A stretch of 37,973 nucleotides of DNA from Candidatus Synechococcus spongiarum SP3 (GTDB lineage Bacteria > Cyanobacteriota > Cyanobacteriia > PCC-6307 > Cyanobiaceae). The stretch spans positions 1 to 37,973 of the forward strand of contig JXQG01000014.1 of NCBI GenBank assembly GCA_001007665.1, in the 5' to 3' direction. Shown in pieces: positions 1,207 to 3,728 of this stretch. The position numbers were made by a program, and so were the translations under genes. Position 1 is the first letter of the stretch, and each line of letters begins with the position of its first letter. The notes beneath the pieces were generated by a model. It did no database searches, was not told the DNA's origin, and saw only the letters and a program-made list of their open reading frames with translations.

Positions 1207-1389
1207 ACACAGCAACCCTGCCCAAGAATGATCACCGCTCCGTTGAGCAGTGTTCAGAGAACGGCAATATCAGAGGTGTCTTATGTCCAAATATCCTGTT
1301 GATTCTCCCAATATTCCCTGACATTCTCGAATCGGTGGATTCTTTCTGTAATCTTGCCAATCTCTCGCGGATAGAAGTCCATCATGACA

Positions 1390-2043
1390 TCACAAAAACT
1401 GTAACATCCACTCTTTTCTTGAATTTCGCTCTATCATGCGAATGCTGTTCGAGTTGGCAATCTGAATCTGTCCCCAGCCAAGGGCGCCTACAGTCAAACA
1501 CTTCCAATCAAGAAACTCAATTGGCGTGAACAAGACATCTGAAACTTCAAGATCAGTTCCTTCAATCGAATACTTGATCATGACGAGAGAGAAAACGTTG
1601 GCATCTGATTCATAAAATCTTGCCAGCCGCTCGACAGATATAAGATTGGGCATGTTGAAGCTGGTACCCTCTCTATGGGTGTTTACGTCTATCACAGAGT
1701 AGATTCCCTGCACATCGGTGAATGCCATATCAGCCATGGCACGTCGTGCAAACTCGCACGAATACTCGCTACACCAATCTCCAAGGAAGCTCTCGAACCT
1801 GTCGGCCACCAAAGACTCCAATGCATCTCCGACGGCTCTTGGGCTACGGGATGTTTGTGGCGAAAGGAAACCATCCCGGGAGTTGATGTACTCCTTGATT
1901 CTGGTTGCCACTTTCTTATGATGCCCTTGGTAGTAGAAAATCGACTTCATTCGAAAATCGCTCCTTGGGAAGAGTTGTTCTGTCTTTTTGCTTGGGATAC
2001 TCTTTGTTGCTGAGGGAAGAGTTTCGTTCCCAGAATACGCCAT
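1390..2043 (-). CDS. Putative type II restriction endonuclease (PD-(D/E)XK-like, lysine replaced)
   Basis: The gene lies just downstream of and overlaps a DNA methyltransferase on the same strand, the usual arrangement of a type II restriction-modification pair. The protein (217 residues from ATG 2043, preceded by AAGGA at a good distance; an alternative ATG at 1950 also has AAGGAG upstream and gives 186) contains SRSPRAVGDALESLVADRF, then DMAFTD and VIDVNTHREG, then FNMPNLISVERLARFYESD. The spaced D...VID-x-(K)-TH layout fits a PD-(D/E)XK nuclease core, but the expected lysine is asparagine (AAC at 1681-1683). No recognition site can be read from the sequence. AT-rich codon use differs from the GC-rich neighbours, suggesting acquisition by transfer. 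Either a degenerated enzyme or a natural variant. Confidence 0.65.
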   Translation of the reverse strand: MAYSGNETLPSATKSIPSKKTEQLFPRSDFRMKSIFYYQGHHKKVATRIKEYINSRDGFLSPQTSRSPRAVGDALESLVADRFESFLGDWCSEYSCEFARRAMADMAFTDVQGIYSVIDVNTHREGTSFNMPNLISVERLARFYESDANVFSLVMIKYSIEGTDLEVSDVLFTPIEFLDWKCLTVGALGWGQIQIANSNSIRMIERNSRKEWMLQFL

Positions 2044-3058
2044 CTTTATATCCTTGGATGGCTGAATCCCATCGTACAGCAGAAAGTCGTTTTCTTGTCC
2101 AGCAAAGGTATTCCATATTGATGTCAATACCACACCAACGTCTGCACAGTTTTTCCGCAACCACTGCAGACGTGCCACTCCCCAAGAACGGGTCAAAGAC
2201 AAAGTCGCCTTCTTTAGAACTCGCAAGAATCAGTTTTGCAAATAACTTTTCTGGCTTTTGTGCAGGATGAGGAGTGTTTTCAGGCATTGACCAGAATGGT
2301 ACCGTCAAATCTGTCCAAATGTTGGATGGATGTGTTAAACGAAAATTCCCATCGCTCTCGTGCTTCCAATCTTTCGGGTTTCCGTTCAGGCGATAAGGTG
2401 CCAATACTTTGCGCTTCAGCTTTACAGCATCTACATCGAAATAGTAATTCTCGTAATTAGTACAAAACCAAATGTCTTCCGTATTGTTCTTCCAATTTCG
2501 TCTTGCACCTCTCCCCTTTTCCCGTTCCCAAGTGATTCTGTTTTGCACTAAAAATCGTTTTTCCAAAACTGGCAGTACTAATGCTGATGTCCTCCAATCG
2601 GAACATACATAGAGCGTGGCTGTAGGCTTCATCATTGGAATCAGTAATTCTATCACTCTCTCAAACCAAGATGCGTAGCACTCTTTATTCAGTTTCCTGA
2701 AGTAATTTCCATTGTAGTTTTTTGTTAGATTATATGGTGAATCGAGGATGAGCAGGTCAATGAATTGAGTGGGAAGGCGAGCCGCTATTTCGAAGAAGTC
2801 ACCTCCGACAAGCTGGCAGTCTATGTCCTGACGGTCAACTGCTGTTTCAACACGCAAAATGGACTTGGAAAGCGCAAGAAGCTCTTCTGGAGCACATGTC
2901 AGCGTTCGATTCCGTGGAGCGACCGACCGATCACAGGCAACTTGTCGCCCGTCAGGTCGTTCGCCTTGAAGTCCGTCCTGTACCGTCGCCCCCTGCACGG
3001 ATGGGAGCCCTTGACACGCCGACGGCTGAAGGCGGAAGGATGGACCAGCATTGGTCAT
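1916..3058 (-). CDS. Type II DNA methyltransferase, beta class (N6-adenine or N4-cytosine)
   Basis: The methyltransferase core is clear: motif IV DSPYNL at residues 106-111, and near the C-terminus FDPFLGSGTSAVVAEKL (residues 288-304), the AdoMet-binding FxGxGT motif, preceded by HPAQKPEKLFAKLIL. Motif IV before motif I defines the beta class. Motif IV normally reads (D/N/S)PP(Y/F); here the first proline is serine (TCA). The protein would modify the site cut by the overlapping endonuclease. The first about 50 residues (to about 2910) are GC-rich, unlike the rest, show no recognisable domain, and the ATG at 3058 lacks a ribosome-binding site. The true 5' end may have been replaced by foreign sequence; a TTG within codons 65-70 is a possible alternative. 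Confidence 0.75.
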   Translation of the reverse strand: MTNAGPSFRLQPSACQGLPSVQGATVQDGLQGERPDGRQVACDRSVAPRNRTLTCAPEELLALSKSILRVETAVDRQDIDCQLVGGDFFEIAARLPTQFIDLLILDSPYNLTKNYNGNYFRKLNKECYASWFERVIELLIPMMKPTATLYVCSDWRTSALVLPVLEKRFLVQNRITWEREKGRGARRNWKNNTEDIWFCTNYENYYFDVDAVKLKRKVLAPYRLNGNPKDWKHESDGNFRLTHPSNIWTDLTVPFWSMPENTPHPAQKPEKLFAKLILASSKEGDFVFDPFLGSGTSAVVAEKLCRRWCGIDINMEYLCWTRKRLSAVRWDSAIQGYKDGVFWERNSSLSNKEYPKQKDRTTLPKERFSNEVDFLLPRAS

Positions 3059-3087
3059 GCATGATTCAGTATGAATGTTATAGACTC

Positions 3088-3728
3088 ATGCCCCCCGTCC
3101 CCCTGGCTGCCCTGAATCCCGCAGATGGCGCCCCAGGCCTGGCATTGGCCTGCTAGCGCGCCCTCGTGCTGGGTGTCGTCCAGGGTCTCACCGAGTTTCC
3201 CCCATCAGCAGCACGGCCCACCTCAAGGCGGTGCCGGTGTTGCTGGGCTGGGGGGATCCTGGCGTGGCGGTCACCGCTGTGTTGCAACTGGGCAGCATCG
3301 TGGCCGTGATCGCCTATTTCCGGAAGGATTTGCGCCAACTGGGCCTGGGGCTGTTGCGGGGCCTGCGGCAAGGGAATCTGAATGCCCCGGAGACGCGGCT
3401 GGGGCTGGCCGTTGCGGTGGGCACCGTGCCCATTCTTGCGGCCGGCCTCACCATTCGGCTGTTCTTCTACGAGGCCTACGGGGCATCGGTGCTGCGCAGC
3501 TTGGCGGGGATCGGGGTGGTGTCCATGGTGATGGCGGCGCTGCTGGCCTTGGCGGAGCGGGTGGGTCGGCGGCGCCATGGCCTTTGGCAGGTGAGCGTCA
3601 CCGCGGAGTGGCTGTTGGGGTTGGCGCAGATGCTGGCCCTGGTGCCGGGGGTGTCCCGCTCGGGCAGCACCCTCACGGCAGCGCTGCTGATGGGCTGGCT
3701 TGTTCGCGGGCTTGGGGGACATCCTTAG
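3088..3728 (+). pseudogene. uppP: Broken undecaprenyl-diphosphatase
   Basis: UppP (BacA) is an inner-membrane phosphatase that recycles undecaprenyl pyrophosphate for peptidoglycan synthesis. The order of conserved pieces is intact: LVLGVVQGLTEF, then ISSTAHLKAVPVLLGWGDPG, then GVSRSGSTLTAALL. There are three lesions. An in-frame TAG at 3154-3156 replaces the tryptophan expected before RALVLGV. One base is missing in the TTTCCCCC stretch around 3197-3203, shifting the frame inside the ELPISS motif. The coding sequence ends at 3728, right after the GVSRSG motif, so the last third of the membrane domain is missing. The start ATG at 3088 is a guess. UppP activity is essential, so another copy or a PAP2-type phosphatase is expected elsewhere. 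Confidence 0.85.

Follow-up and report, generated by a model that had tools for sequence, protein, structure and literature searches.

Whether a restriction-modification pair whose two enzymes both carry a changed catalytic motif is still at work, has been reduced to methylation or is disappearing is the question raised by this locus. The window, a stretch of 37,973 nucleotides, is contig C113 of a Candidatus Synechococcus spongiarum-like draft genome (2.13 Mb, 117 contigs). Candidatus Synechococcus spongiarum is a cyanobacterial sponge symbiont, and the best match of the window endonuclease is that of isolate 1 of this organism (locus L002; 84% across the protein). On the minus strand lie a type II methyltransferase (M) and then its endonuclease (R), whose features are collected in Table 1. 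Neither gene is intact: R has lost a lysine of its active-site motif and carries a frameshift, while M has a proline-to-serine change and a frameshifted tail. The locus very probably represents a decaying type II restriction-modification pair of a sponge symbiont, in which R would have been lost first and M would now be failing or weakened. The frame listed for R, 2226-1390, starts within M; the start conserved in relatives, whose R begins MKS/MRS-xFYY, is the ATG given in the table, from which window R has 186 residues versus 222-223 in typical open relatives.

Table 1. Coordinates of the pair, its lesions and related features (window positions unless another contig is named).
Feature	Position	Strand	Basis
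M: N6/N4 DNA methyltransferase ORF, PF01555, 380 aa	1916..3058	-	Pfam E=6e-39; PADLOC MTase_II E=2.4e-57; PDB relatives 8urk, MboIIA; DNA alignment
M motif IV codon TCA (Ser; 2740-2738), D-S-P-Y for D-P-P-Y	2738..2740	-	Alignments with relatives
M, one base missing between 2015 and 2014 in comparison with L002 and L003	2014..2016	-	DNA alignment; tail alignment
R: remnant of a HincII/SwaI-like type II endonuclease, ATG 1950-1948, stop 1392-1390	1390..1950	-	Alignment; fold of relative L003
R codon for the most likely catalytic lysine, now AAC (Asn)	1681..1683	-	Lys in 15/15 relatives; aligns with Lys of HincII LLDVKT
Five-T run, one base longer than in relatives, +1 frameshift ending R	1394..1398	-	DNA alignment
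Former C-terminal coding stretch of R, recognisable, out of frame	1281..1393	-	DNA alignment with L002-L005
uppP/BacA (undecaprenyl-diphosphatase) pseudogene; one base missing after 3199, truncated after 3699	3084..3699	+	Same neighbour in two related genomes
Other stop-interrupted PF01555 methylase genes of this genome	G000:C51:7214-8142, C67:3762-4418, C16:84171-84377, C9:8488-8823		

From the perspective of family membership, M matches PF01555 with 134.7 bits against a cut-off of 26.7, and its relatives in the PDB include 8urk (E=6e-32), MboIIA (E=2e-20) and RsrI (E=1.9e-14). The PF01555 domain is shared with methylases of the N6_N4_Mtase family such as MboIIA, RsrI, YhdJ/PRK11524 and CcrM, from which window M differs by DSPY in place of DPPY and by its frameshifted tail; against the named NCBIfam methylase models it scores below their cut-offs. 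The AdoMet motif I (DPFxGSGT) is present as DPFLGSGT.

For R, neither Pfam nor NCBIfam provided a family, and PADLOC returned a weak REase_II match (E=1.6e-4 for the relative L003); a match of the relative L013 to a bacteriocin-related model (E=0.045) was taken as chance. A profile of 13 R sequences, from which the window, L002 and L016 were left out, reached HincII in the PDB at E=0.062, with A-D...V-D-V-K-T aligned to A-D...L-D-V-K-T of HincII, so that TADILL...LLDVKT of this enzyme corresponds to the D...DVK motif of the R family. The HincII active site, D114, D127 and K129, fits this alignment. The fold was examined on the open R of L003 rather than on the window protein, with an AlphaFold2 model (pLDDT 77.8, pTM 0.77, low confidence at 65-81) whose structural matches were SwaI (Z 13.9), HincII (Z 11.3; Foldseek E 1.9e-7) and EcoRV (Z 10.3). 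The L003 protein is predicted to share the EcoRV-like PD-(D/E)XK fold of HincII/SwaI-like endonucleases, although the structural alignments contain just 12-20% identical residues. Given the HincII alignment and these fold matches, the lysine lost in window R is most likely the PD-(D/E)XK lysine; window R differs from HincII/SwaI-like enzymes in being without this residue and without its C-terminal end. No homologues of R were found in plasmids, nor in viral contigs with window R as the query, although in the viral contig L074 an endonuclease with VVDIKTH adjoins a relative of M. The Prevotella record H1, a possible route to named relatives, carries no annotation there.

The earlier note had called attention to VIDVNTHR in place of VIDVKTH in the endonuclease (codon AAC) and to DSPYNL in place of DPPYNL in the methyltransferase (codon TCA), and comparison with relatives bears out both observations. 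Lysine occupies the R site in all 15 relatives from the genome-contig collection, both aspartates of the active-site motif being kept in the window, and DPPYNL is found in each of the 14 close M relatives with a readable motif IV, a count that leaves out L016, in which only the C-terminal part of M is in frame. Within a profile alignment, built from 12 relatives and searched against ORFs from closely related loci, from viral contigs and from a wider set of loci of the same phylum, the second position of motif IV is a proline in 67 of 67 aligned M homologues (53 DPPY, 6 DPPF and 8 SPPY); 21 more matches did not cover this column. The profile alignment replaced a coarse regular-expression count, which picked up chance motifs. 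Where PF01555 methylases have (D/N/S)PP(Y/F/W), window M has DSPY. Homologues with asparagine and serine at the two positions, which the earlier note had named as the contrary case, were looked for, and no such functional variant was found among close relatives (15), relatives on viral contigs (20) and additional homologues covering the motif (33). Both changes are thus private to the window among the sequences examined. The emphasis on catalytic sites is to some extent post hoc. Of the invariant columns, 2 of 132 in M and 2 of 64 in R are broken in the window, a tally not exceeding that of several open homologues (range 0-6) and one that speaks against heavy decay, but two of these four breaks are the catalytic-motif residues themselves.

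In addition to the motif changes, base-level DNA alignment revealed two lesions that the earlier note did not contain. In R, the extra T leads the frame into its present stop, so that the last ~37 residues are lost, their former codons remaining readable out of frame; in the L003 model, helix 178-192 ends within the missing stretch, which also contains the last predicted helix (198-216). M keeps to the frame of its relatives as far as residue ~347; beyond this, the missing base replaces a native tail of ~23-24 residues, poorly conserved among relatives, by 33 others. The truncation of R bears on the reading that the pair is an active variant, in which asparagine serves a working endonuclease and DSPY is tolerated. 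Substitutions at the lysine position of PD-(D/E)XK nucleases are tolerated in some enzymes, which lends this reading some plausibility, but the loss of the C-terminal residues of R and the absence of either change from every relative examined make it extremely improbable. The frameshifts are also relevant to the possibility that the pair works and that its defects were introduced by sequencing or assembly, as one of them is a length change in a homopolymer of T, the other a 1-base deletion in a CT-rich run, and the genome is a draft of 117 contigs. Such errors are nevertheless an improbable explanation for the locus, since both motif changes are substitutions and conserved genes elsewhere in the window, lepA and cbiC among them, give full-length Pfam matches. 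Moreover, M and R are also damaged in the sister genome, which comes from a separate record, and the lesions there are different ones.

The comparison with this sister genome argues for decay rather than error. The pair was found in three of ten genomes of the genus, namely the window's own, G002 (contig C16, which is L002) and G004 (contig C44, which is L003), each being counted once. Both genes are open in L003. In L002, M is interrupted by TGA after ...KECYTS and carries its own 1-base deletion, at a site other than that of the window, and R is interrupted by TAG just before GIYSVIDVKTH. Because the lesions of L002 differ from those of the window in both genes, decay occurred independently in the two lineages. 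One change is common to them, a threonine-to-isoleucine substitution at R column 100, which is invariant in the 14 other R proteins. The earlier proposal that the pair may be dying, or its endonuclease already inactive, gains from the private changes, the truncating frameshift of R, the stops in both genes of the sister and the relaxed constraint on R described below. Across a wider range, in all 15 relatives, R is immediately preceded by M sequence on the same strand, the M of L016 being partly in frame. This last locus (L016 2799-3965) is a decayed or misassembled member, in which M is in frame from residue ~173 and R is frameshifted after residue ~131; only the R codon alignment included it, and L010, which has a 2-residue deletion, was kept in the alignments.

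With regard to the order of loss, purifying selection between the two broken lineages is weaker on R than on M: the window-L002 omega (dN/dS) is 0.271 for R (95% interval 0.126-0.556) and 0.109 for M (0.063-0.178), the R value being the higher in 1955 of 2000 bootstraps. Ten further R pairs for which omega was computed lie between 0.067 and 0.151 (nine at 0.067-0.131, and L012-L014 at 0.151), the intervals of L012-L014 and of L007-L009 (0.131) overlapping the window-L002 value. On the window branch itself, strict parsimony assigns 4 nonsynonymous and 15 synonymous codon changes to M and 6 and 5 to R, a contrast that falls short of significance (Fisher p=0.11, against 0.037 for the raw pair), and a three-taxon estimate gives M an omega of ~0.125; along this branch both genes look mostly conserved still. 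The omega contrast and the shared threonine-to-isoleucine change would fit an early loss of R and a later loss of M, the data being few.

In the succession of events proposed here, window R would no longer cut DNA, and its loss would have come first, perhaps before the window and L002 lineages separated; selection would then have preserved M for some time as a solitary methylase, and M would now be failing or weakened. Such an order is expected to be survivable, because a cell is killed by an active cutter whose methylase is missing. Degenerate restriction-modification systems and solitary methylases left behind by the loss of the endonuclease are of a known kind, which the window resembles in that its R is truncated and mutated and the adjacent M is better conserved, and from which it differs in that M itself has a motif change and the sister genome has stops in both genes. 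The three genomes form a series, from an open pair through one with both motifs hit to one with stops in both genes, that bears on the order in which a restriction-modification system dies in a sponge symbiont; the series matches what is expected if the endonuclease has to be lost first, and is otherwise ordinary gene decay.

How far M has gone along this path is the point at which further readings diverge. According to one of them, R is dead, and M, with DSPY and its new tail, still methylates its site, perhaps more slowly, and is kept for that purpose. The T4 Dam variants P172A and P172T, studied by Kossykh in 1993, reportedly keep much of kcat, which is modestly lower, with weaker AdoMet binding. 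The portions of PMC3814359 consulted describe the first proline of motif IV as acting via its main-chain carbonyl, and natural dimethylating RNA methylases as having a small hydrophobic residue at this position. Together with an M frame that is open over all the conserved motifs, the low omega of M on the window branch and the poor conservation of the native tail, these data favour a working methylase, and the proline-to-serine change alone is no proof of inactivity, as its effect may be weakening only. Set against them are the proline kept by every aligned homologue, the nonsense codon in the M of the sister and the accumulation of two lesions in one gene, M, which leave a maintained, methylation-only remnant rather unlikely. 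Doubtful to a greater degree is the variant in which M persisted as a solitary methylase after the death of R and was later turned down, so that DSPY would mark a weak-but-working or product-altered enzyme, an attenuated form favoured by selection and not a dead gene. Among the matches listed in a literature search, DSPY did not occur. A decaying pair with M failing or weakened is the preferred reading.

The surroundings of the pair are themselves disturbed. The pair adjoins uppP in the window, in G002 and in G004, and this neighbour is intact in the latter two. An intact uppP of the same genome, 91% identical to the window copy, lies at G000:C8:21001-21780 with no restriction-modification genes beside it. 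The ~9% difference is about that between copies of different species, so that the copy in the window could be an ancient duplicate or a lateral acquisition that arrived with the pair. The match to both G002 and G004 ends left of ~1248, and, in view of this and of the broken uppP copy, the pair can be placed in a rearranged, decaying patch. At the start of the contig (1-70), a repeat of ~68 bases has many copies in the genome, a dozen of them at 97-100% identity and several at contig ends; it is probably a dispersed element at which the assembly breaks.

Other methylases of this genome are interrupted as well: internal stops occur in 4 of its 11 PF01555 matches (Table 1), which suggests a wider methylase loss in this symbiont. 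In other genomes, at least three PF01555 matches with internal stops were present among those listed (two in G079 and one in G064). Enrichment of restriction-modification systems in sponge symbionts is reported in the consulted parts of PMC6506613 and PMC5649159, none of which treats this pair; as far as these literature searches reach, the pair is undescribed.

Finally, the relatives of the pair are widely distributed. Loci L002-L016, with R identities of 61-84%, come from records labelled Synechococcus, Alpha-, Gamma- and Deltaproteobacteria, Rhodothermales and Bacteroidetes, a spread that points to lateral transfer. The pair also occurs on virus-like contigs: in L074, an IMG/VR viral contig, a relative of M with DPPYNL adjoins an endonuclease with VVDIKTHRMDTHFNMPNLT.
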